Shown piece after piece: positions 1 to 41,981 of a DNA stretch of 41,981 nt (the first letter of the stretch is position 1; each line of letters begins with the position of its first letter). A model generated the notes under the pieces. That model saw only the letters and a program-made list of their open reading frames with translations. It was not told the origin of the DNA and did not search any database. Source of the DNA: a virus; IMG/VR virus record IMGVR_UViG_3300043777_000142, positions 1-41,981 of that record. The stretch is one strand, 5' to 3'. A program made the position numbers and the translations under genes.

Positions 1-254
1 AGACGCATCACCTACCTGGCAGTTCAAAAGCGCGAGGAACACCTGTACGGCGATGAGTTCCCGTGCAAGGTAGTGCTCCCTGAGCACATTCAGGACATTG
101 CAAGCACTCGCGACTATCTATGTCACAAAGTGTGGCCGTGTGACAAACTTATCATGATGGATGACGACTTGGAATTTGCCGTGCGGCGGTCTGATGATCC
201 CACCAAATTCCAAGACGCCTTTCCAGAAGATATCAATCAAATGATTAATGCCCT
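1..254. repeat. Terminal direct repeat (copy 1 of 2), assembly overlap
   Basis: Identical to 41728-41981 except A at 127 versus G at 41854. The mismatch is almost exactly central (126 bases before, 127 after), the pattern expected from a de Bruijn assembly with k=127 around a polymorphic site. Evidence that the genome is circular or circularly permuted, with a unique length of 41,727 bp. Confidence 0.92.
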
Positions 255-729
255 CTATGTAACACTGGAGGGGGTGGCGCACACGGGAGTTTCTCCACGC
301 GAGGGTGCCAACAGGAATACTGACGACTTTTGCTTCAACACCCGGACTATGCGAGTTCTGGGCTACAACACGAAGGTACTGGTGCAAGAGCATATACTAT
401 TCCGTCCTTATACCTTCATGTGTGACTTTGGTGTGACGTTGGAACTCTTGACCAGGGGCTATGACGGAATAGTACTTAATCATTGGGTCAACAATCAGGC
501 TGGCTCTGATACTCGTGGCGGATGCAGCACTCAGCGCACACCAGAACTTCAGACCGCAGCAGCATATTATCTTAAAGAACGCTTCCCACAGTTCGTTACT
601 GTGGTGGAGAAGGAAACTAAAACGTCATGGGGCGGAGGGGTACGTACAGATGTCCGAATTCAATGGAAAAAGGCTCGAGTTTCTGCAGGAAAAGATAGCA
701 AACCTACACTACTGGATGTGGGAGCGTGA
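1..729 (+). CDS. GT-A glycosyltransferase, TET-associated (TAGT) type; 3' part of a gene split by the window edge
   Basis: Open from base 1 in frame 1. The missing 5' end is at the other end of the window (GTG at 41656), giving 266 residues when the circle is closed. The acidic DDD motif at residues 78-80 (IMMDDDLEF) fits the metal/nucleotide-sugar-binding DxD of GT-A enzymes, and the C-terminal HW..NQ..SDTRGGCS..R stretch resembles phage glycosyltransferases predicted to glycosylate hydroxymethylated bases in DNA. It overlaps the next gene by 80 bp and is followed by other base-modification genes, so the likely role is sugar transfer to 5-hydroxymethyl-pyrimidine in phage DNA. Seen: DxD motif and context. 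Known: TAGT families sit in such cassettes. Inferred: substrate. Codon 127-129 is Lys (AAA) here but Glu (GAA) in the repeat copy at 41854. Confidence 0.7.
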   Translation, partial: RRITYLAVQKREEHLYGDEFPCKVVLPEHIQDIASTRDYLCHKVWPCDKLIMMDDDLEFAVRRSDDPTKFQDAFPEDINQMINALYVTLEGVAHTGVSPREGANRNTDDFCFNTRTMRVLGYNTKVLVQEHILFRPYTFMCDFGVTLELLTRGYDGIVLNHWVNNQAGSDTRGGCSTQRTPELQTAAAYYLKERFPQFVTVVEKETKTSWGGGVRTDVRIQWKKARVSAGKDSKPTLLDVGA

Positions 730-1531
730 GAATGTCCGACACGCCAAAGAAGCAGGTCAAGCGAAGCCCTGGAGCAGCGACAGTATCTTCCAGCAAACTT
801 ATTTCTGCAATGTCCATAGAGAAGACGACAGAGTTACCAAATTCATCCGTACTGCTTACAATTCTGAAGTTGAGGATCCAATGTTTGAAGTTAACATTGG
901 TTTCTCCCGAATCATTAATGAACCTGCCACACTTAACGCCATTGGATATATTAGAACTGCGGACGAGCTTAAAACTGTCGGTGGGCGACTTAGAGAACGC
1001 CAAGAAAGCGGCTTTAAGACTTTTGGAGACGCTTACATTGTAAGCACGAATGGCCGCCCCGTACCCAAGCACGCCTATGTGGCAGATGTACTGCTCCCGG
1101 CGCTTATGAACGCCGTGGGACCGCAGGGAACTAGCCCGCGTGCTACCATAGCCCCCCGCTGTAGCGCGTGGTATGAGCGCTATATGAGAATTTTTGGCAT
1201 TAGCTCTTTCATGGCAGGACAGAATATTGCAGACCTTAAGAACACACCTGGGCATCCTCTATATACTGCTAGCGATCGTGGCCAGTTTTCTTGTCCTGGT
1301 CCTGGCAGTCTTCGGGGCTTGTCCTGGATATTTCATGGTGATGACAGTCTACCGGTTGCTAAAACGTATCAAGACGATATCGCGTATGTACATGGAGCAC
1401 TTAGACAACTTGAACCCTTGATTGAAGTAGATTTTCAGGACTTGCAGAATTGTCTCTGCGAGTTTGACAAATATATGAGGATTTTACACGGTACGGGCCG
1501 CAGCAAGAGGGGATACCCTGGTGTACGGTGA
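650..1531 (+). CDS. Thymine hypermodification enzyme: aGPT-Pplase / 5-hmdU DNA kinase helical-domain family
   Basis: 293 residues. The frame is open from 515, but I place the start at ATG 650, which has GGAGGGG at 634-640 and lets the conserved region begin close to the N-terminus. Family-like features are LHYWMWERENVRHAKEAG (about 19-36), a WSSDSIF...YFCNVHREDDRVTKFI segment (41-66), a helix-hairpin-helix-like IFGISSFMAGQNIADL (181-196), and D209 followed by GPGSLRG (217-223). These match the DNA-glycosylase-fold proteins that install amines or other groups on 5-hydroxymethyl-dU in phage DNA (alpha-glutamyl/putrescinyl thymine pyrophosphorylases) and the helical domain of 5-hmdU kinases. No P-loop is present, so it is not itself a kinase. 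It overlaps the glycosyltransferase by 80 bp and the next gene by 11 bp. Family assignment is from remembered motif patterns; the exact reaction is inferred. Confidence 0.68.
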   Translation: MSEFNGKRLEFLQEKIANLHYWMWERENVRHAKEAGQAKPWSSDSIFQQTYFCNVHREDDRVTKFIRTAYNSEVEDPMFEVNIGFSRIINEPATLNAIGYIRTADELKTVGGRLRERQESGFKTFGDAYIVSTNGRPVPKHAYVADVLLPALMNAVGPQGTSPRATIAPRCSAWYERYMRIFGISSFMAGQNIADLKNTPGHPLYTASDRGQFSCPGPGSLRGLSWIFHGDDSLPVAKTYQDDIAYVHGALRQLEPLIEVDFQDLQNCLCEFDKYMRILHGTGRSKRGYPGVR

Positions 1532-1733
1532 AAATGCCCCGCGCTCTAAAGTGCGAGTGGTTGAGAGAACAGCCTACTCGGAAACTTACTACTATGTGGA
1601 AAAACGAGTATTTTGGCTATTTTGGGTTTTTGTAGAGCATTTTGCAGAAAAAGAACTTGCTGTGAAATTTGCAATAGACCTTCATAAAATGTTGAATGAT
1701 GGTCCAAAGGAATGTATAGTATGGGAATTATAA
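1521..1733 (+). CDS. Small unknown protein in the base-modification cluster
   Basis: 70 residues, GTG start at 1521 with AGAGGGG at 1506-1512. It overlaps the upstream hypermodification gene by 11 bp and the thymidylate-synthase homologue by 13 bp, so it sits inside a translationally packed operon. The centre is very aromatic (YYYVEKRVFWLFWVFVEHF) and could be a hydrophobic core or membrane-associated segment, followed by a charged helix. I recognise no family. Its location between two modification enzymes makes an accessory role possible, but nothing in the sequence states one. Confidence 0.6.
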   Translation: MYGENAPRSKVRVVERTAYSETYYYVEKRVFWLFWVFVEHFAEKELAVKFAIDLHKMLNDGPKECIVWEL

Positions 1734-2713
1734 CGTTCGAGGGTAGCACAGCCGCCCAACTCTATGAGGAAGGGCTGTACCAGTTTCGGGTTAGCGGTCG
1801 GAAAGAGGCAAGCCGGAATGGCCCTGTGCTAGTCCTTCCCAATATAGCAGTGTTTACACTGAACGACCCCAGACGAAGGGTTCTGGATGATCATGTGCGG
1901 AACGCTAACCCGTTTTTCCACATGATGGAATTCATTTGGATGATGGCGGGCAGACAGGATGTTGAATGGATTGCGCAGTTCAACAAGCAATATCGCGAAT
2001 ATGCCGATGACGGTATGGTGATGGCTGCTTACGGCTATCGTTGGCGGAAGCGTTTCAGTTTTGATCAAATAGAACAAGTCATCTCAGCACTTAAGAAGGA
2101 CAAAACCACCCGCCAGGCTGTCCTTCAAATGTGGGACCCCACCACTGATCTTGGCACTAGCTTCAAGGACAAGGCATGCAACACGAGCATAATGTTTCGA
2201 AACAACGCAGGAGCGTTGGACATGCTCGTGACGAACAGATCAAACGACTTTGTGTGGGGTGCCCTTGGCGCGAATATAGTCCATATGACGATGTTACACG
2301 AACTGATTGCTCACTTAAGTGGGATCCCATTAGGCAAATATTCAGTTGTGAGCAACAACCTGCACATTTACGAAAACATGCCACGTTCAGTAGAAATACA
2401 GAACACTCTGGTAGCGGGAGAGATATACGACAATTGCGAGCCCCTCCCCCTGTTTGGGAAGGACGAGGAATACGGTGGCTTCGTGATAGACTGCGAAAAT
2501 TTCTGTAATAGCAGGATGGCTGGACTGTACGCTCCTGGATTTTTGTCGCAAACTGCTTATCTTGCATATACCGCGTGGTTCAAACGTCATGACGATACCC
2601 GGTATGCGCTACAATTGATTGACAATATGAAACATCATGATTGGAGAATTGCATGTCAAAACTGGTTCAAAAGAAACGTAAAAGGAGCAGAAAAATGTAT
2701 GGAAAAGAAGTAA
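1721..2713 (+). CDS. Thymidylate synthase homologue, probable dUMP hydroxymethylase
   Basis: 330 residues. ATG 1712 would sit directly on the ribosome site AAAGGA (1706-1711), so I choose ATG 1721. Thymidylate-synthase-fold signatures: E70 in the FHMMEFIWMMAG helix, the catalytic cysteine C153 in KACNTS, the phosphate-binding RSND (173-176), N185 in WGALGANIVH (the Asn that selects dUMP over dCMP in this family), and LHIY (214-217). The RSND..WGALGAN style is that of phage enzymes that make 5-hydroxymethyl-dUMP rather than dTMP (established for hypermodified phages), so it probably feeds 5-hmdU into the phage DNA. The two neighbouring enzymes support this. An ordinary dTMP synthase remains the alternative. 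Confidence 0.8.
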   Translation: MGIITFEGSTAAQLYEEGLYQFRVSGRKEASRNGPVLVLPNIAVFTLNDPRRRVLDDHVRNANPFFHMMEFIWMMAGRQDVEWIAQFNKQYREYADDGMVMAAYGYRWRKRFSFDQIEQVISALKKDKTTRQAVLQMWDPTTDLGTSFKDKACNTSIMFRNNAGALDMLVTNRSNDFVWGALGANIVHMTMLHELIAHLSGIPLGKYSVVSNNLHIYENMPRSVEIQNTLVAGEIYDNCEPLPLFGKDEEYGGFVIDCENFCNSRMAGLYAPGFLSQTAYLAYTAWFKRHDDTRYALQLIDNMKHHDWRIACQNWFKRNVKGAEKCMEKK

Positions 2714-3057
2714 GTGGAAGGGTGGGAACTACATCTGGTCACATTAACGGAGTGGGGATACACTCGACAGGCAGACCAGTTGAAACTCCTGGGCCGGTTA
2801 ACGAAGCTGCAATACGCTCGTTAATTGATTGCCTAATTGGCCGCACTTGCGAAACAAAAGAACAGGCAGTCAGACTGCTTGCCAGAACATCCAATGTGGC
2901 CAACAGAGTTCTTGGAGAGGAACCACCGTCAGAAAGTAATAGGGATAAATCCCCATTCCCAAGCGCACTTCTCCAAAATCTTGAGCAACACATGGCCGAA
3001 CTTCAAGAGATTTTGGCGCAGGTGGGGCACCAAGTTTCGCGCCTGGAAGTGCTGTGA
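2695..3057 (+). CDS. Small unknown protein with C-terminal coiled coil
   Basis: 120 residues. The frame is open from 2641, but ATG 2695 has AAAGGAG at 2681-2687 and overlaps the thymidylate-synthase homologue by only 19 bp, so it is the preferred start. The N-terminal third is Gly/Pro/Thr rich and probably disordered. The middle contains a short helical segment around a CETKEQAVRLLAR stretch, and the C-terminus (LLQNLEQHMAELQEILAQV) has heptad character. The stop overlaps the next start as GTGA. No recognisable family; the arrangement suggests co-translation with the HAD phosphatase. Confidence 0.65.
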   Translation: MYGKEVSGRVGTTSGHINGVGIHSTGRPVETPGPVNEAAIRSLIDCLIGRTCETKEQAVRLLARTSNVANRVLGEEPPSESNRDKSPFPSALLQNLEQHMAELQEILAQVGHQVSRLEVL

Positions 3058-3557
3058 AAGAGCCAGTTAAGGATATCGTCATTTGCGATCTTGACGGCAC
3101 ACTCGCAATTGACGATCATCGTGCGGTGCATCTACACAAAAATCCTCACTGCCCCAAGCAGACGGACCTTTCGGCCAAGTGTTTCTGTAAACCTGAAGAA
3201 CGCGATTGGGATACGTACTTCAGTTTGTGCGGCGAGGATACTCCCAACCACGCCGTCGTGCAGCTAATAAGGATACTCAATCATGCCAGAAAGAGAATCT
3301 TTATCTTCAGTGGACGGTCTGATACAGTTCGATCCGCAACGGTTGAATGGCTCGATCGTTATAATATCGTCTACGAAAGACTTGAAATGCGTAGGGCCGA
3401 TTCACGTACAGATGACAATATGCTCAAACTGTCGTGGGTGGATTCGCTCGGGATTAGGGATAGGATTTGGCTTGTCTTGGAAGACAGAAGTCGTGTTGTT
3501 GCCGCGTGGAGAGATGCGGGATATACCTGCCTGCAAGTGCGACCGGGTGAATTTTGA
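3054..3557 (+). CDS. HAD-superfamily phosphatase, polynucleotide kinase 3'-phosphatase-like, without kinase domain
   Basis: 167 residues, GTG start overlapping the previous stop (GTGA). HAD motif I is DLDGT (residues 9-13, ICDLDGTLA), motif II is the IFIFSGRSD strand with SGR, and motifs III/IV are in the MRRADSRTDDNMLK and LVLEDRSRVVAAWRDAG segments. The R..D...D...K and EDR..VVAAWR patterns resemble the C-terminal 3'-phosphatase domain of T4-type polynucleotide kinase. A His/Cys-rich insert (HKNPHC...CFC) lies after motif I. There is no N-terminal P-loop kinase domain. It probably removes phosphate from nucleotides or DNA 3' ends. Its place after the thymidylate-synthase homologue makes a nucleotide-pool or base-modification role possible, but this is inference. 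Confidence 0.75.
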   Translation: MKEPVKDIVICDLDGTLAIDDHRAVHLHKNPHCPKQTDLSAKCFCKPEERDWDTYFSLCGEDTPNHAVVQLIRILNHARKRIFIFSGRSDTVRSATVEWLDRYNIVYERLEMRRADSRTDDNMLKLSWVDSLGIRDRIWLVLEDRSRVVAAWRDAGYTCLQVRPGEF

Positions 3558-6151: not shown

Positions 6152-6412
6152 CTACTCCTTAGTTAAAGATGGGTGCGGTCGCTTTATTTGAGCCAACACG
6201 GCGCATAGTACCGCATTGGCTATTAGAATGTAGTGAAAAGTGTCATGAGGAATGAGGGTGGGATCAAGCGTAAGCGTCGCCAAAACGCCCTGTACGAGCA
6301 TCAAAATGGTGATGGCATTCGCCCACGCCCACTTCAAAATATAGACTAATCCGCTCCAGGCAGTCCATACCATGTATTTCCATCCAAAGTCACTTGGCAT
6401 GGGGTCATTCAT
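6152..6412 (-). CDS. Holin-like small membrane protein
   Basis: 86 residues. ATG 6412 is preferred because GGGGGAA precedes it at good spacing; the frame is open further upstream inside the endolysin gene. Two hydrophobic segments are visible, roughly residues 12-45 (VWTAWSGLVYILKWAW, ITILMLVQGVLATLTL) and 57-73 (ILIANAVLCAVLAQI), with a short basic C-terminal tail (KRPHPSLTKE). It overlaps the endolysin gene by 8 bp. Size, membrane topology and neighbour fit a holin that permits endolysin access to the cell wall. Identification rests on these features, not on a family motif. Confidence 0.62.
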   Translation of the reverse strand: MNDPMPSDFGWKYMVWTAWSGLVYILKWAWANAITILMLVQGVLATLTLDPTLIPHDTFHYILIANAVLCAVLAQIKRPHPSLTKE

Positions 6413-6773
6413 TGACGTATTCCCCCGGTATGGTAAGAACCTCGGCCACAGCATCGTCTGGGCTGCACGGCACATTCTCGCACACAAAGTCCAGGTACCC
6501 AGCCGGATCATTATTATCCACCCCAGGAGGGCAGTACGAATAGATCAACTCTTGGATTGACATCCCTCGTCCGGCGTCGATTTTGAGTTGTCGCTCGAGA
6601 TCGTCCCACCCGAGTTGAGGGGTTTTAATCTGCCCAATAGCGTTTGGGTCATTGGGGCTGTGGAAACTGTTAGGACTATGTCGTAAATCGCCAGGGTTAT
6701 TATTGCGAGTAGGCAGAGTTCCCGGAATGCCATATCCTTCCTCCTTAGCAATCACTTCACCTAACTTGCTCAT
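6405..6773 (-). CDS. Endolysin-type muramidase/transglycosylase, P5-like
   Basis: 122 residues from ATG 6773, with AGGAGG directly upstream; the frame is open to 6812 but that start lacks a ribosome site. The TRNNNPGDLRHS block followed by AIGQIKTPQLGWDDLERQL, GMSIQELIYSYCPPG and a D..GYLDFV segment is the typical pattern of small phage lysins often annotated as structural protein P5-like lytic enzymes. They cleave the peptidoglycan glycan. Glu residues near the N-terminus (EVIAKEEG) are candidates for the catalytic acid. Adjacent genes encode holin-like and coiled-coil membrane proteins, completing a lysis cassette. Confidence 0.72.
   Translation of the reverse strand: MSKLGEVIAKEEGYGIPGTLPTRNNNPGDLRHSPNSFHSPNDPNAIGQIKTPQLGWDDLERQLKIDAGRGMSIQELIYSYCPPGVDNNDPAGYLDFVCENVPCSPDDAVAEVLTIPGEYVNE
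6545..6733 (-). CDS. Possible nested membrane-protein gene inside the endolysin gene
   Basis: 62 residues in another frame, wholly within the endolysin gene. ATG 6733 follows a perfect AAGGAGG at about 6 bases. The N-terminus MAFRELCLLAIITLAIYDIVL is a plausible signal anchor, followed by a polar tail. Nested lysis genes exist (Rz1 within Rz), so a spanin or antiholin is conceivable. Against it, the ribosome site is simply the codons for KEEG, which recur in this lysin family, so it could be chance. Confidence 0.3.
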   Translation of the reverse strand: MAFRELCLLAIITLAIYDIVLTVSTAPMTQTLLGRLKPLNSGGTISSDNSKSTPDEGCQSKS

Positions 6774-6987
6774 TTCTATCCTCCTGTCTACGCAAGCGGG
6801 AGCGTGCTTCAATGTTGGTTAATCGGGTCTCAATGGATCTGAGACGTTTCTGAACTTCGTCGGCAGCCTTGAGGTGGCGACCCACTAACACCCGAAGTAT
6901 AATCCCCCAGGTAGCCGTGAGCAATGCGATGGCCCATCCTGACTGCCCCACCGCATCCGCCACGTCCTTAAGAGGAACTTCGCTCAT
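6757..6987 (-). CDS. Small membrane protein with coiled-coil tail, lysis cassette
   Basis: 76 residues, ATG at 6987 overlapping the preceding stop as ATGA. One hydrophobic span, GWAIALLTATWGIILRVLVG (about residues 17-36), is followed by a charged amphipathic helix (EVQKRLRSIETRLTNIEARSRLRRQEDR) with heptad repeats. It lies directly upstream of the endolysin and overlaps its 5' region. This architecture suits an inner-membrane spanin subunit or a phage-holin-like anchor. No catalytic motif. Function inferred from architecture and location. Confidence 0.62.
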   Translation of the reverse strand: MSEVPLKDVADAVGQSGWAIALLTATWGIILRVLVGRHLKAADEVQKRLRSIETRLTNIEARSRLRRQEDRNEQVR

Positions 6988-7208
6988 TTATTCTTCTTTG
7001 GGTTCTTAGAAGTGCCTGGTACACCCGCCGGTGCTTGAAATTGAGGTACGATTTGCCGCTCAATCTCAGCATATGCTTCTTTGGCTTGACCATGAGGCAT
7101 AAGCTCTAATCCGCGTAACACGATATTCAGCGTGTTCGGAGTCATGGTGAAGGTAACGGGTCGGTCGACGGTAACGGGCTGGGGGCCAGGGGACTTCGTG
7201 TTGGACAT
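6984..7208 (-). CDS. Small unknown protein
   Basis: 74 residues, ATG 7208 with AAGGAG upstream. The central part (VTFTMTPNTLNIVLRGLELMPHGQAKEAYAEIERQIVPQF) could form a beta strand and two helices; both ends are Pro/Lys rich. Its 5' end overlaps the cupin gene by 67 bp in another frame, and its stop overlaps the next start as ATGA. Small proteins with a PNTLNIVLRGL-type motif occur near phage lysis genes, but I cannot assign a role. Confidence 0.62.
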   Translation of the reverse strand: MSNTKSPGPQPVTVDRPVTFTMTPNTLNIVLRGLELMPHGQAKEAYAEIERQIVPQFQAPAGVPGTSKNPKKNK

Positions 7209-7513
7209 GAAATTACTCCTTCAAGCTGTTGTATGGATAGTTTCTTGTATTCTTCTGGTTCACCGTTTAGATACGTGTTCAGTATAGCAGTACGGGGCTT
7301 CAGTGCAACTATCTCGTGTGGCTTGTTATTCTCAGGTATGAACGTATCCCCCGCCACGAGCACCACATGGTTCACCCGCACACTGCCGCGCAACACATGA
7401 ACATCATGGTACATCGGTGGCTTATGAGAATGCATAGGGATAGTTTCCCCCGCATGCTCGAAATCATAGCGGCAATCAAAACCACCATGACGACAATGGT
7501 AGTATCTTATCAT
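7142..7513 (-). CDS. Cupin-fold protein
   Basis: 123 residues, ATG at 7513 in an ATGA overlap with the tail-protein stop. The MHSHKPPMYHDVHVLRGSVRV block resembles cupin motif 1 (several His and an Asp as metal ligands) and AGDTFIPENNKPHEIVAL resembles motif 2. The domain covers about residues 15-90; the C-terminal 30 residues are Pro/Ser rich and overlap the next gene. Cupins bind metal ions and many small ligands. Why a phage would place one between tail and lysis genes is unclear; a virion-associated sugar-binding or enzymatic role is possible. No function proven. Confidence 0.6.
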   Translation of the reverse strand: MIRYYHCRHGGFDCRYDFEHAGETIPMHSHKPPMYHDVHVLRGSVRVNHVVLVAGDTFIPENNKPHEIVALKPRTAILNTYLNGEPEEYKKLSIQQLEGVISCPTRSPLAPSPLPSTDPLPSP

Positions 7514-8178
7514 GTGAATTTTATCACAATAACTCCTGGGTTGCCCAGGGTTCGGCCAGTATTCGCCGCGCCTGCTCCGCCGTGACCAGTTCCAGGGCCT
7601 GTGGACACTGTCCCCACTATGGGAGCTCCACCATTGCCTCCTCCACCCGCACCAGTGCTTCCGTTAGAGCCCGCATTCCCCGCCGTGTTAGCGACATTGC
7701 CGCCTGTGGCGACTGCCGGGGCCGCGCCACCGATTCCGTTGGATCCGCTGGCATTGCCGCCGACTATGCCAGCAGGAGAAGACATCGCCGTAATGGCGAA
7801 GGTACCGCTAGCCACCGAGGATGGCGAACCAATGGCTCCTACTGTACAACTGATGGTTAAACCATTGGACGTTGCAACGTTGTAGGAACTACTAGAAAGT
7901 GAGCTTGAACTAGCCCCTCCTCCACCAAGTTCACTACATCCAGAACCGCTACCTGTTCCGCCTGCGTTGGTTCCACCATAGCAATCTATCTGCACGGTAG
8001 TAGCACCAGACGGAATGGTGATTACTGTTCCAGACTGGGCAGTGTTGAGCGTTGTCGTTTGCGGTGCGAATGGACTTGCGTCCTGGGCAAACATGATGGT
8101 GGAACCACTGGCGCGGATCTGTCGACGCCAGCGAGTTCGTCTAACGTAGCGCGGCCGATTTTTGACCAGTGCGCTCAC
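7510..8178 (-). CDS. Glycine-rich tail appendage protein
   Basis: 222 residues, GTG start in a GTGA overlap with the tail fibre stop. A basic N-terminal region (RPRYVRRTRWRRQIR) precedes a predicted beta strand block (VITIPSGATTVQIDCYGG). The remainder is very rich in Gly, Ala, Ser and Asn (GGGGASSSS, TGAGGGGNGGAP) and ends in NPGVIVIKFT, the usual end of glycine-rich phage tail domains. Such proteins form receptor-binding tips or adhesins. It follows the tail fibre gene in the same operon. Confidence 0.65.
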   Translation of the reverse strand: MSALVKNRPRYVRRTRWRRQIRASGSTIMFAQDASPFAPQTTTLNTAQSGTVITIPSGATTVQIDCYGGTNAGGTGSGSGCSELGGGGASSSSLSSSSYNVATSNGLTISCTVGAIGSPSSVASGTFAITAMSSPAGIVGGNASGSNGIGGAAPAVATGGNVANTAGNAGSNGSTGAGGGGNGGAPIVGTVSTGPGTGHGGAGAANTGRTLGNPGVIVIKFT

Positions 8179-30732: not shown

Positions 30733-32715
30733 CTACTGTATTGTGCCAGTATCGGGGGGCGGAGTATAGTATAATTGAGGCATTCCATTATTCTTATATT
30801 TTCTTTTTTCGTACCCTAGCCCAAGCAGAATAGCAGATGCTTCTCGTAATTGCGGATCACCTTGCCGCATTGGCAATTCCATCCATTTAAACAATTGGCT
30901 CATTGTAAATCTAAATTGTCCTTGAATAATATTGTTGGCCTGTTTGGCCATTTTATTCGCAGCAATTACTGAAAGCATATGCTCCTTAAAGATATTAGGA
31001 ACTTCAAAGTTTTCAGCATTTTCAGATGCGCCCTTTACTTCCCACCAGTCAGTTCCTCCCATTTGATACCGCTGCCAAGCTTCAGCCCAAAGTTGGTCTC
31101 GGTTAGCTTCAAGCGCTTTAAAATCAAGAAGCCTAGGCACCTCCACAATAGCATAACGACGTTGACCGGTAGGATCACTTTGAAGAAAATCATGCTTATT
31201 GCCGCAACCATATAGAGTAAACCTCCGTGGGAAAACTTCAACAGACGCTCCATAAGGAGGTCTGAACATATCTTGAGTAGTCGTAATCATCGCTTTAAGG
31301 AGTGAAGTATCCTTACGTGTAAAAGAATCCAACTCGTCGAAACCGACGACGAGCGCGCTATGGAGTAAGAGATGTAAATCCTTATTATCATGATCCCCAT
31401 AGAGGGTAGTGTTATTCCCTTTGAATAGAATACCGGGCATGCTGGTTTTCCCAGTGCCTTGTGGACCAATCGTGATAAATATCCAGTCAACCTTAGATCC
31501 GGGCTTATCCATTCTAGCACAGGACGATATAAGCCACTTAGACCCAACTTCGCGAGTAAATTGGTCATTTTTGACGCCCCAATGGTCTATCAGCCATGTA
31601 TCTAGTCTTGGAGTCTGATCCCACATTAAGTTTTTGACATAATCCAACATCGGACTACGTTCATTTTCCTTTGCAAGACTTCGCATACAAAGTTGAATAG
31701 TCTTACTACTGACCTTTTCCATACCGAAATTGTGCTGCATGTGATTAGCTACATCCATTTCAGTGCGATCGGGCTCGGCCGGTTCGTCGCCAAACATCAC
31801 GCGGTTATTGTCGCGATTAAGCCAAAGAGGTGGGAATGCAGGATGATTACGCATCAAACGCATGATGTTTGATGTATGCTGGTGAATTATAGCCTTGCCT
31901 TTAGAATCAGTCCTAAAGGCTAGATTGTACTTAGTTGCGAGAGATTGGGGAGTCTGGACAAGGTCGTTGGGATCCAAGGATGGAATAGCCATGACGTGCT
32001 GTTTGGCGTCTGATCCCCAGGCAACAATAAGGTCGTCAATCTTACCCGGAGGATTAAGCAGCGAAATGGTGAATCCACACTGCGACAGGGCATGTGCGAA
32101 CGTACCATATGCTCTACAGACATCATATCGGAATATATCTCCGTCTGGGATAATGACCACGTCCTTAACACTTCTTCGGTTAAGGTATTCAAGAATCCAT
32201 GGGTGCGGACCGCCTGTTCCATTGGGATTGCCCCACATCGTGCATCCAGCAATACCGAATGCTGGGAGGCCCAGATTTTTAATGACGGAAACTGTTTTCT
32301 TTTCTCCCTCACAAACGTAGATCGTATCCCCCGTAATCTCTTGGCAAGGGTAGAGGTACGGAAGGAAGCTGGGGAGTCCGTAAGCAGATAGCTCCTCACT
32401 AGATGGCTGTGTGTAGCGCTGCTCTTTACTAAAAGGGGGATACTTGAGCTTAATGCGGTACATGGTGTTGAAGTTATCGGCGTCACGTAAAACGTCTCCA
32501 TTAAGATCAAAATAGGGGATATGATAGCCAGCCAGCGCGCGCTCAGGTAACTTCATATTATCCACGGCATAGCCATAGATATCATCAAAACTGATGCCTG
32601 ACTTGGCCAGGTCATCGTCGGCAAATTCCCTATTGAATTTAGTGGATGGTGTGCCTATGAAATCGGAGTTGACAACTCTTCTGACCCGATAGGGTCTGAA
32701 TGCGACAACGGACAT
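30733..32715 (-). CDS. TOPRIM primase / VapE-type helicase (replicative)
   Basis: 660 residues, ATG 32715 with AGGAATAAG upstream. TOPRIM-like part: E136 in YVCEGEKKT and D191/D193 in VVIIPDGD. C-terminal VapE-like ATPase: Walker A GPQGTGKT (417-424), Walker B VVGFDELD (456-463) and a candidate arginine finger at RR 519-520. It should synthesise primers and/or unwind DNA for the phage replisome. The only large gene of the minus-strand early set, transcribed divergently from the plus-strand block that carries the DNA polymerase. Family A polymerase plus VapE is a known podovirus combination (inference for function). Confidence 0.8.
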   Translation of the reverse strand: MSVVAFRPYRVRRVVNSDFIGTPSTKFNREFADDDLAKSGISFDDIYGYAVDNMKLPERALAGYHIPYFDLNGDVLRDADNFNTMYRIKLKYPPFSKEQRYTQPSSEELSAYGLPSFLPYLYPCQEITGDTIYVCEGEKKTVSVIKNLGLPAFGIAGCTMWGNPNGTGGPHPWILEYLNRRSVKDVVIIPDGDIFRYDVCRAYGTFAHALSQCGFTISLLNPPGKIDDLIVAWGSDAKQHVMAIPSLDPNDLVQTPQSLATKYNLAFRTDSKGKAIIHQHTSNIMRLMRNHPAFPPLWLNRDNNRVMFGDEPAEPDRTEMDVANHMQHNFGMEKVSSKTIQLCMRSLAKENERSPMLDYVKNLMWDQTPRLDTWLIDHWGVKNDQFTREVGSKWLISSCARMDKPGSKVDWIFITIGPQGTGKTSMPGILFKGNNTTLYGDHDNKDLHLLLHSALVVGFDELDSFTRKDTSLLKAMITTTQDMFRPPYGASVEVFPRRFTLYGCGNKHDFLQSDPTGQRRYAIVEVPRLLDFKALEANRDQLWAEAWQRYQMGGTDWWEVKGASENAENFEVPNIFKEHMLSVIAANKMAKQANNIIQGQFRFTMSQLFKWMELPMRQGDPQLREASAILLGLGYEKRKYKNNGMPQLYYTPPPDTGTIQ

Positions 32716-39397: not shown

Positions 39398-39845
39398 TGA
39401 CGAACAGAGGTATGTCGATTGGTGTACTCAAGAACAAATAATATGCGAGAAAGTCAAGTTTGTCACGGCGGGCTATCCGGACAGACTCTCCATGTTGCCT
39501 ACTGGACTCCACGTTTGGATAGAATTCAAAAGGCGAGGCAAAAAGCCAGAGAAAAACCAGCTATACCGCATCGCAAAGCTACGTTTCTCAGGCGCACTCG
39601 CAGGATGGACAGATGATAGTAGAATCGCCATTGACGCCGTCTCGTCCATCTTGGCAGCCACACGACTACCAGAAACGTGGAATCAGATTGCTACTCTCGC
39701 AATCCGCTGGGGGTTTGTTTTTGGACCCAGGTTTAGGAAAGACGAGTATCTGTTTGGCAGCTCTAAAGATATTGAAGGCCAAAGGGTATGTCTCCAAATG
39801 TTTGATCGTAGCGCCGCTGCGCCCGATGTACAAGGTATGGCCTGA
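39381..39845 (+). CDS. VRR-NUC nuclease (PD-(D/E)XK)
   Basis: 154 residues from ATG 39381 (weak ribosome site). VRR-NUC motif: E8 near the N-terminus, GYPD (31-34), WIEFKRRG with E48 and K50, and Q60. The domain should end near residue 92 (IAIDAVSSI), after which 60 residues in this frame are read out of frame with the helicase gene and look artefactual. Such nucleases occur fused to, or next to, SNF2 helicases in phages and resemble Holliday-junction/flap nucleases. Whether the frame really extends to 39845 is doubtful. Confidence 0.7.
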   Translation: MLLEVDDEQRYVDWCTQEQIICEKVKFVTAGYPDRLSMLPTGLHVWIEFKRRGKKPEKNQLYRIAKLRFSGALAGWTDDSRIAIDAVSSILAATRLPETWNQIATLAIRWGFVFGPRFRKDEYLFGSSKDIEGQRVCLQMFDRSAAAPDVQGMA

Positions 39846-41097
39846 TGAAATTGAAAAGTGGGAAGATTTTAAAGATCTAACCTATGCCATTCTGCATGGC
39901 AATATTAAGGAACACAATGTCCGATCAACCGCTGATATTTATCTTATCAACCCAGAAGGACTCCTCTGGCTTGATGGTTTGCCTGCCGCAGACGTACCTG
40001 CGTTCGACTGCATCATTATTGATGAGTCTACTAAATTCAAAGATTCCACTACTAAGCGGTTTCGAATACTCAAGAAGATTCTTCCTACTGTCGCTCGACG
40101 TTGGATACTTACAGGCACTCCTGTGCCAAACGGCATATCAGACCTATTTGGGCAGATATACATCCTTGACGCAGGAAGAGCTTTGGGGCGCTACATCACT
40201 CATTTTAGGATGCAATATTTCGAGCGCTCTGGATACAATCTGTATGAATGGAAACCCAGAGTCGGAGCATTTGATGAGATTGTGGAAAAGATTAGTCCCC
40301 TCATCTTACAGTTGTCCGCTGACGATTACTTGGCGATGCCCGAGCTTAAACATTTGGTCATTGAAACCGAGTTGCCAGCAGAATCCATGGTACGATATAG
40401 ATCTGTAGAAGATGATTTTCTCAGCATAGCGGAGAGCGGGAATATAATCGCAAGCAATGCAGCCGTCGCAGGTATAAAATGTAGGCAGTTAGCTAATGGG
40501 GCAGTCTATGATGAAAACCGTAACGTTATCCCAATTCATGATTCTAAGCTGGAAGCTTTGGAGAGCCTTTTCGAAGAACTCTCCGGTACACCTACACTTG
40601 TCATGTACGAATTCCAGCATGATGCGGATAGAATTATGGCCCGACTCGGGAAGTTGCCTATTTTTTCAAGCGGATTGTCCAGAGCTAAGCTCGACTCGCT
40701 CATTAACGATTTCAACGAAGGAAGGACGCCAATCCTTCTCGGACACCCGGCGAGTATGGGGCATGGACTTAATCTGCAGCAATCCTGTCATCACATAATA
40801 TGGTTCGGTATACCATGGAATCTAGAACACTATGATCAAGCTATTGCACGGATTTACCGCCAGGGCCAAAAGTCTGGCACAGTTTTTGTCTACCACATTG
40901 TCGCCAAGGACACCCTCGACGAACGAGTGCTCAAAGTGCTCGGCGGAAAGGATAGGACTCAGCAAGCAGTGCTTGGAGCACTTGGCGTCTCCGGAGCCAG
41001 ACATACTCTTGTGGAGCCTATCGGGGAGGTACTACGCCCGAGCCCTGACGCCGAAGGGCAAAGCTCAGATAGGTCCGGGGGAAACCCGAATTCGTGA
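39613..41097 (+). CDS. SNF2-family DNA helicase/translocase
   Basis: 494 residues, ATG 39613 with AGGATGG upstream. Motifs: Q-like WQPHDYQKRGI (14-24), Walker A DPGLGKTS (38-45), DEST (137-140, motif II), TGTP (167-170, motif III), GHGLNLQQS (motif V region) and QAIARIYRQGQ (409-419, motif VI). Superfamily 2 Snf2-type ATPases translocate on double-stranded DNA. Adjacent VRR-NUC and Cas4-like nucleases suggest a replication, recombination or branch-processing module. Overlaps the nuclease frame by 233 bp. C-terminal 30 residues are low-complexity. Confidence 0.83.
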   Translation: MIVESPLTPSRPSWQPHDYQKRGIRLLLSQSAGGLFLDPGLGKTSICLAALKILKAKGYVSKCLIVAPLRPMYKVWPDEIEKWEDFKDLTYAILHGNIKEHNVRSTADIYLINPEGLLWLDGLPAADVPAFDCIIIDESTKFKDSTTKRFRILKKILPTVARRWILTGTPVPNGISDLFGQIYILDAGRALGRYITHFRMQYFERSGYNLYEWKPRVGAFDEIVEKISPLILQLSADDYLAMPELKHLVIETELPAESMVRYRSVEDDFLSIAESGNIIASNAAVAGIKCRQLANGAVYDENRNVIPIHDSKLEALESLFEELSGTPTLVMYEFQHDADRIMARLGKLPIFSSGLSRAKLDSLINDFNEGRTPILLGHPASMGHGLNLQQSCHHIIWFGIPWNLEHYDQAIARIYRQGQKSGTVFVYHIVAKDTLDERVLKVLGGKDRTQQAVLGALGVSGARHTLVEPIGEVLRPSPDAEGQSSDRSGGNPNS

Positions 41098-41655: not shown

Positions 41656-41981
41656 GTGCCATTAGTAATCCCCACCTACGGTCGCGCCCAGCGCCAAAAG
41701 ACTTTCTATAATCTGCCGGTAGACTTGAGACGCATCACCTACCTGGCAGTTCAAAAGCGCGAGGAACACCTGTACGGCGATGAGTTCCCGTGCAAGGTAG
41801 TGCTCCCTGAGCACATTCAGGACATTGCAAGCACTCGCGACTATCTATGTCACGAAGTGTGGCCGTGTGACAAACTTATCATGATGGATGACGACTTGGA
41901 ATTTGCCGTGCGGCGGTCTGATGATCCCACCAAATTCCAAGACGCCTTTCCAGAAGATATCAATCAAATGATTAATGCCCT
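41656..41981 (+). CDS. GT-A glycosyltransferase (TAGT type), 5' part; continues at base 1
   Basis: GTG 41656 with GGGAGTG upstream starts MPLVIPTYGRAQRQKTFYNL, the usual first strand (VIPTYGR) of GT-A enzymes. The window ends in mid-gene. Bases 41728-41981 repeat 1-254, so the gene is complete at 266 residues when joined. Glu is encoded at 41854 where the first copy has Lys. Functional reasoning is given for the entry at 1-729. Confidence 0.72.
   Translation, partial: MPLVIPTYGRAQRQKTFYNLPVDLRRITYLAVQKREEHLYGDEFPCKVVLPEHIQDIASTRDYLCHEVWPCDKLIMMDDDLEFAVRRSDDPTKFQDAFPEDINQMINA
41728..41981. repeat. Terminal direct repeat (copy 2 of 2)
   Basis: Second copy of bases 1-254 with G at 41854 in place of A. 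Not a coding duplication: both copies read the same gene in the same frame. Confidence 0.92.

Follow-up and report, generated by a model that had tools for sequence, protein, structure and literature searches.

Among the closest described systems to the one analyzed here are those of the M6/ViI type, represented by Pseudomonas phage M6, the Salmonella ViI relative Det7, and Pam3. What they share with it is a thymidylate synthase (TS) homolog of the dUMP-hydroxymethylase type together with a protein of the HMUDK_hel family, and in M6 and Pam3 the genes for these two proteins are clustered near that for DNA polymerase. In M6, gp54 is the 5-hydroxymethyl-deoxyuridine (5-hmdU) DNA kinase, a member of PF18748, and gp51 is the amino acid:DNA transferase, a member of PF18724. 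The DNA of M6 carries a derivative of 5-hmdU (PMC6449724).

A second point of reference is the TAGT glycosyltransferase of the T-even phages T2 and T6, a GT-A enzyme of family PF20691. In kinetoplastids, base J is glucosyl-5-hydroxymethyluracil. As of 2019, glycosylated 5-hmdU had not been reported in phage genomes (PMC6449724), and a 2026 study found solitary TAGT homologs, whose role was left unexplained, in 288 of 753 phage genomes (PMC13216743). The combination of TS, aGPT-Pplase1 (HMUDK_hel), and TAGT in one region, noted in pelagiphages in 2022, links Brevibacterium phage LuckyBarnes and Pelagibacter phages of the HTVC023P type to the phage described here; the accessible text of that paper holds no remark on a missing kinase or on an exchange of partner enzymes (PMC9599517).

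Here, we analyze this combination in the window, an IMG/VR virus record of 41,981 nucleotides taken at its full length. Unlike M6/ViI-type phages, the window phage has TAGT in the place of the kinase and lacks both a P-loop 5-hmdU DNA kinase and an amino acid:DNA transferase. It also differs from LuckyBarnes, in which the TAGTs number two and the TS is longer.

Gene content of the cluster

Positions 1 to 254 of the window, the first copy of an unstranded terminal direct repeat, recur with one mismatch at positions 41728 to 41981. Because these 254-bp ends recur, the genome is closed: the record is a complete phage genome of 41,727 bp, circular or terminally redundant, in which genes for terminase, portal, major head, PolA, and primase/helicase can be recognized. 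Truncation of the contig is thereby ruled out as the cause of the kinase gap. Pfam matches were judged against curated cutoffs, with PHROGs as a second set of families, and the invariant residues of TAGT, TS, and HMUDK_hel were drawn from 90 to 200 relatives.

Three genes beginning at position 41656 had been predicted to encode a TAGT glycosyltransferase, a helical protein labeled aGPT-Pplase/HMUDK, and a TS homolog resembling dUMP hydroxymethylases. All three assignments held, with Pfam matches above the cutoff and conserved residues intact. The TAGT gene starts with GTG, and its 5′ part (positions 41656 to 41981, plus strand) continues into the main part at positions 1 to 729 (plus strand) once the terminal repeat is collapsed, so that a single open reading frame (ORF) of 266 amino acids runs across the junction. 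Its match to PF20691 (E = 6.7e-11; 42.9 bits versus a cutoff of 27.5) agrees with that to PHROG 842, beta-glucosyl-HMC-alpha-glucosyltransferase (E = 2.6e-34). The DDD at residues 79 to 81, a DxD motif for metal and sugar-nucleotide, is invariant or nearly so in 94 TAGT homologs, and the window protein retains it along with the family-invariant D167, GGCS, and R204. The structural model of one relative, L027, has a GT-A fold and matches TarP in Foldseek (E = 1e-6). The protein is predicted to attach a sugar to hydroxymethylated bases of DNA. The window genes scanned yielded neither an alpha-GT nor a beta-GT. Since the TAGT of T6 uses a base that is already glucosylated as its acceptor (PMC13216743), the acceptor in the window phage could also be a modified base.

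Phage glycosyltransferases have other targets too, and the enzyme might instead act on something other than DNA, such as the cell surface or the virion; its place beside HMUDK_hel would then be incidental, and the DNA would carry plain 5-hmdU. We regard this as highly improbable, given that PF20691 is a family of DNA glycosyltransferases and that HMUDK_hel and TS both lie within 5 kb at 47 of the 50 nonredundant TAGT loci of the window's clade. The published genome MW202897 encodes a TS and a TAGT 38% identical to that of the window with no HMUDK_hel, so TAGT may not need HMUDK_hel everywhere.

The TS homolog (positions 1712 to 2713, plus strand, with its start at 1712 or 1721) matches Thymidylat_synt (PF00303; E = 2.4e-23, above the cutoff) and has the catalytic Cys and RSND...N intact. 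In TS, an Asn recognizes dUMP, and the residue aligned with it is kept in 98% of 195 TSs from modules of this kind. Among proteins of solved structure, CMP 5-hydroxymethylases match it best (E = 6e-17) and outrank all thymidylate synthases, and the protein is 39% identical to gp58 of M6. It is probably a dUMP 5-hydroxymethylase, yielding hydroxymethyl-dUMP instead of dTMP. TS and hydroxymethylases are hard to separate by sequence (PMC5977210), and the characterized relatives of TAGT act on hydroxymethylcytosine (PMC13216743), which would suit a TS homolog that is either a dCMP hydroxymethylase or a conventional thymidylate synthase, with the sugar placed on cytosine, as in T-even phages. This reading is distinctly unlikely in view of the dUMP-type Asn, the closer likeness to solved CMP 5-hydroxymethylases than to any solved TS, the identity to gp58, from a phage with 5-hmdU derivatives in its DNA, and the tie of HMUDK_hel to 5-hmdU phages.

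HMUDK_hel itself (293 amino acids; positions 650 to 1531, plus strand) starts at an ATG at position 650 that overlaps the TAGT gene. Its match to PF18723 was strong (E = 2.8e-31; 109.4 bits versus a cutoff of 25), so a search of the 293- and 266-residue proteins against the family profiles bore out both predictions. The double label given to this protein named the right family, but PF18723 is aGPT-Pplase clade 1, and the two names are one family rather than alternatives. Every residue conserved in ≥85% of 214 homologs is present in the window protein, including the invariant GPGSxRG and LCEFDKYMR motifs, and the invariant polar core of the family consists of R26, R57, D60, K140, D195, R222, E271, D273, and K274. 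No sequence relatives were found in the PDB. The AlphaFold2 model (pLDDT 93) aligned best in VIA with PaMx11 gp46 PUGT, a 5-PmdU glycinyltransferase (Z = 11.5), followed by the helix-hairpin-helix (HhH) DNA glycosylases Mag1, MjOgg, EndoIII, and OGG1 (Z = 6 to 9.6); Foldseek alone gave weak matches (E of about 1). The protein is thus predicted to have a helical fold of the DNA-glycosylase type.

Two neighboring ORFs were also considered. A HAD phosphatase of the PNKP-phosphatase family (positions 3054 to 3557, plus strand; PF25109, E = 6.5e-25), with homologs downstream of HMUDK_hel in 11 loci, is possibly a nucleotide phosphatase of the same operon. An aromatic ORF of 70 amino acids (positions 1521 to 1733, plus strand), which the original prediction had placed inside the cluster as a protein, has no homologs, with no tblastn match among the other 296 loci. 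L008, the closest relative, has overlapping open frames for HMUDK_hel and TS, which leave it no space. We dropped it as a component of the system, and it is probably not one of its genes.

Search for a kinase

A six-frame search of the closed genome gave no match at E ≤ 10 to either the 5-hmdU DNA kinase (PF18748) or the amino acid:DNA transferase (PF18724). Scanning for Walker A motifs (GxxxxGKS/T) returned the primase/helicase (positions 30733 to 32715) as the only convincing ORF, along with a chance ORF of 62 amino acids, and a kinase HMM built for this analysis had no match in the window. On these three grounds, a hidden kinase was rejected, and the earlier claim that the cluster lacks a kinase gene stands.

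Many IMG/VR records are fragments, and we therefore relied on positive controls and whole records. PF18748 was found in all five cultured phages used as controls (M6, Pam3, RHph_TM26, Sonora, and Det7) and in 18 of 18 kinase-type IMG/VR records. Because the same profile recovers the kinase in every positive control, its failure to match the window is meaningful. Among whole records of the glycosyltransferase type, none of 50 matched PF18748.

Partner enzymes of HMUDK_hel

To place the window in context, we collected HMUDK_hel loci from four IMG/VR scans by HMUDK_hel similarity and from annotated phages; dereplication at 90% identity left 214 loci among the matches listed. A gene was counted as a partner if it lay within 5 kb of HMUDK_hel on the same strand. 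With retrieval by HMUDK_hel similarity, proportions among the matches listed are not frequencies in nature. Among these 214 listed loci, a glycosyltransferase was present near HMUDK_hel in 122 (93 TAGT and 32 GT-B, some with both, the GT-B class being assigned from a glycogen synthase profile match at E = 6e-6 plus subthreshold Pfam matches), a P-loop kinase of the PF18748 type in 44, a methyltransferase in 13 (PF13489, E = 1e-6), a further family weakly resembling GT-B enzymes in 12 (Glyco_trans_1_2 in two members), and none of the partner families in 24. Nearly all of the kinase-free clusters of HMUDK_hel and glycosyltransferase (122 of 214 among the matches listed) also had a TS, and such clusters occur in the cultured phages LuckyBarnes and WilliamStrong, the latter a Microbacterium phage. 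The nearest partner lay ≤300 nt from HMUDK_hel in 149 of the 192 listed loci with a scored distance.

Kinase and glycosyltransferase were never found together (0 of 214 loci among the matches listed; P = 3.4e-20). The amino acid:DNA transferase, present in 28 of the 214 loci among the matches listed, accompanied a kinase in 24 cases and a glycosyltransferase in none. We also considered kinB of Microbacterium phages, a P-loop protein resembling thymidylate kinase, and rejected it as the kinase: it has no PF18748 match, and one such phage has a TAGT. The kinase gap is not a local loss in the window phage.

On trees of HMUDK_hel, the two partners changed places repeatedly. We counted 21 kinase/glycosyltransferase state changes with FastTree (214 proteins) and 14 with an IQ-TREE mixture model (105 rows), where many of the branches behind these counts lack strong support; strongly supported branches forced 16 and 8 changes of the kinase label, respectively. 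Kinase and glycosyltransferase thus interchange at least 14 to 21 times on these trees. In phylogenetically independent pairs they never moved in the same direction (median P = 5e-4 for FastTree and 0.03 for the IQ-TREE subset). In the IQ-TREE subset, those methyltransferase rows that were tested group together as a single clade. An incidental glycosyltransferase with a target outside DNA is hard to reconcile with this strict avoidance of the kinase, at every locus among the matches listed, through many independent exchanges.

Throughout these exchanges, the invariant residues of HMUDK_hel were the same whichever enzyme accompanied it, and no position separated kinase-type from TAGT-type proteins at a threshold of 80%. 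Fused HMUDK_hel-partner proteins, which would show an interface, were not found. In a profile comparison, two motif stretches of HMUDK_hel, G(F)GP...IAD and LC-(E/K), aligned with amino acid:DNA transferases. These transferases are catalysts, and the fold and C-terminal motifs that they have in common with HMUDK_hel, together with an invariant polar core that could be an active site, would fit an HMUDK_hel that is itself a base transferase, a pyrophosphorylase, or a non-P-loop kinase. It would then alter 5-hmdU, and TAGT would glycosylate the product in a second step. We consider this unlikely, as the Lys that is invariant in the transferase motif FGPWIxFKIAD is not conserved at the aligned place in HMUDK_hel, and one invariant set in the company of a kinase, GT-A and GT-B enzymes, and a methyltransferase better suits a handling step common to all of them.

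Discussion

We propose that the window phage encodes a kinase-free module for thymidine hypermodification in which HMUDK_hel presents 5-hmdU and TAGT glycosylates it directly, a proposal that we hold to be fairly probable as a whole. As judged from its family, the TS homolog would make 5-hydroxymethyl-dUMP, which would be incorporated into DNA instead of thymidine. HMUDK_hel would bind the DNA and flip out or otherwise present 5-hmdU, as its fold, the exchange of its partners, and its partner-independent conservation suggest, and a partner from the same operon would modify the hydroxymethyl group thus exposed. For phages of the M6 type, this partner would be the P-loop kinase, readying the base for the amino acid:DNA transferase. 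In the window phage, the GT-A enzyme TAGT would add a sugar straight onto the hydroxymethyl group, giving glycosylated 5-hmdU that resembles base J by a route that would have no phosphorylated intermediate.

A presenting subunit is the simplest role for HMUDK_hel because its base-flipping fold is constant while the neighboring enzyme varies among kinase, glycosyltransferases, and methyltransferase. For the same reason, the suggestion in the original prediction that HhH-enzyme chemistry contributes to the modification now seems less likely than substrate presentation. That prediction had also raised the idea of a variant route; direct glycosylation is the best-supported form of it, but with 122 of 214 loci among the matches listed having a glycosyltransferase, it is not peculiar to the window phage. 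The more general claim, that HMUDK_hel is not a kinase domain and is instead a general presenter of 5-hmdU that recruits a kinase, TAGT, GT-B, or, in one clade, a SAM methyltransferase, and that phages with the window's version contain directly glycosylated 5-hmdU, is one that we hold with about as much doubt as belief.

The TAGTs of the window and of T-even phages are distant relatives; the former is partnered by a dU-type hydroxymethylase and HMUDK_hel, and its acceptor base would differ. As in base J, the predicted product is a sugar on the hydroxymethyl group of 5-hmU in DNA. However, the 5-hmU of base J comes from oxidation of thymine in DNA by a TET/JBP dioxygenase, whereas the window phage has a predicted hydroxymethylase acting at the nucleotide level. 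We found no earlier description of the mutual exclusion, the partner exchange, or the reinterpretation of HMUDK_hel in the literature covered.

The module predicts glycosylated 5-hmdU in phage DNA and offers a concrete role for some of the solitary TAGT glycosyltransferases of phages (PMC13216743). An exchangeable base-presenting module would be useful for writing chosen groups onto DNA. It would also change how a Pfam family whose name denotes a kinase domain is understood, with the kinase as one of several interchangeable partners. For many environmental phages, annotating by the name HMUDK_hel would therefore lead to a false prediction of phosphorylated intermediates.

Surroundings of the cluster in the window

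A gene for a SNF2-type helicase lies directly upstream of the cluster (window 39613-41097). Similar helicases are found upstream of the cluster in several relatives (loci L042, L043, and L049). IMG/VR classes the window record as without end repeats, although positions 1-254 recur at 41728-41981. The two copies differ by one A/G mismatch, which changes K to E in the TAGT glycosyltransferase and which is perhaps the reason for that classification.

Annotation and position of the kinase

In RefSeq, the 5-hmdU DNA kinase (PF18748; M6 gp54, locus L004 6513-7076) is named "terminase small subunit," and PHROG 800, which carries the same name, matches this kinase. This label, which spreads to many Pseudomonas phages, is probably wrong. 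In the ViI relative Det7 (L080), HMUDK_hel lies at about 25 kb and the kinase at 76.4 kb, a gap of some 50 kb, so that the two genes need not adjoin in large genomes.

Candidate base-modifying genes beside HMUDK_hel

A further family, U1, has a member near HMUDK_hel at L033 (11621-12553); others occur near HMUDK_hel at L031, L053, L058, L076, L113, L118, L124, L125, and L179. With motif PATRFYEMLSAGLP, a weak match to Glyco_trans_1_2, and no firm Pfam assignment, U1 is probably an undescribed GT-B glycosyltransferase. In phage LuckyBarnes (L003), two tandem TAGT genes (6366-7977) adjoin HMUDK_hel and a long TS homologue, a pairing that suggests a disaccharide on the modified base. At L057 (596-3019), the genes flanking HMUDK_hel resemble those for PIG-L deacetylase, APS kinase, and sulfotransferase, and the base of this phage possibly bears a sulfated or deacetylated sugar. 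In one clade (L282 and 12 related loci), a PF13489 methyltransferase gene (L282 9057-9974) immediately adjoins HMUDK_hel, and both kinase and glycosyltransferase are missing, suggesting methylated 5-hmdU as the product.
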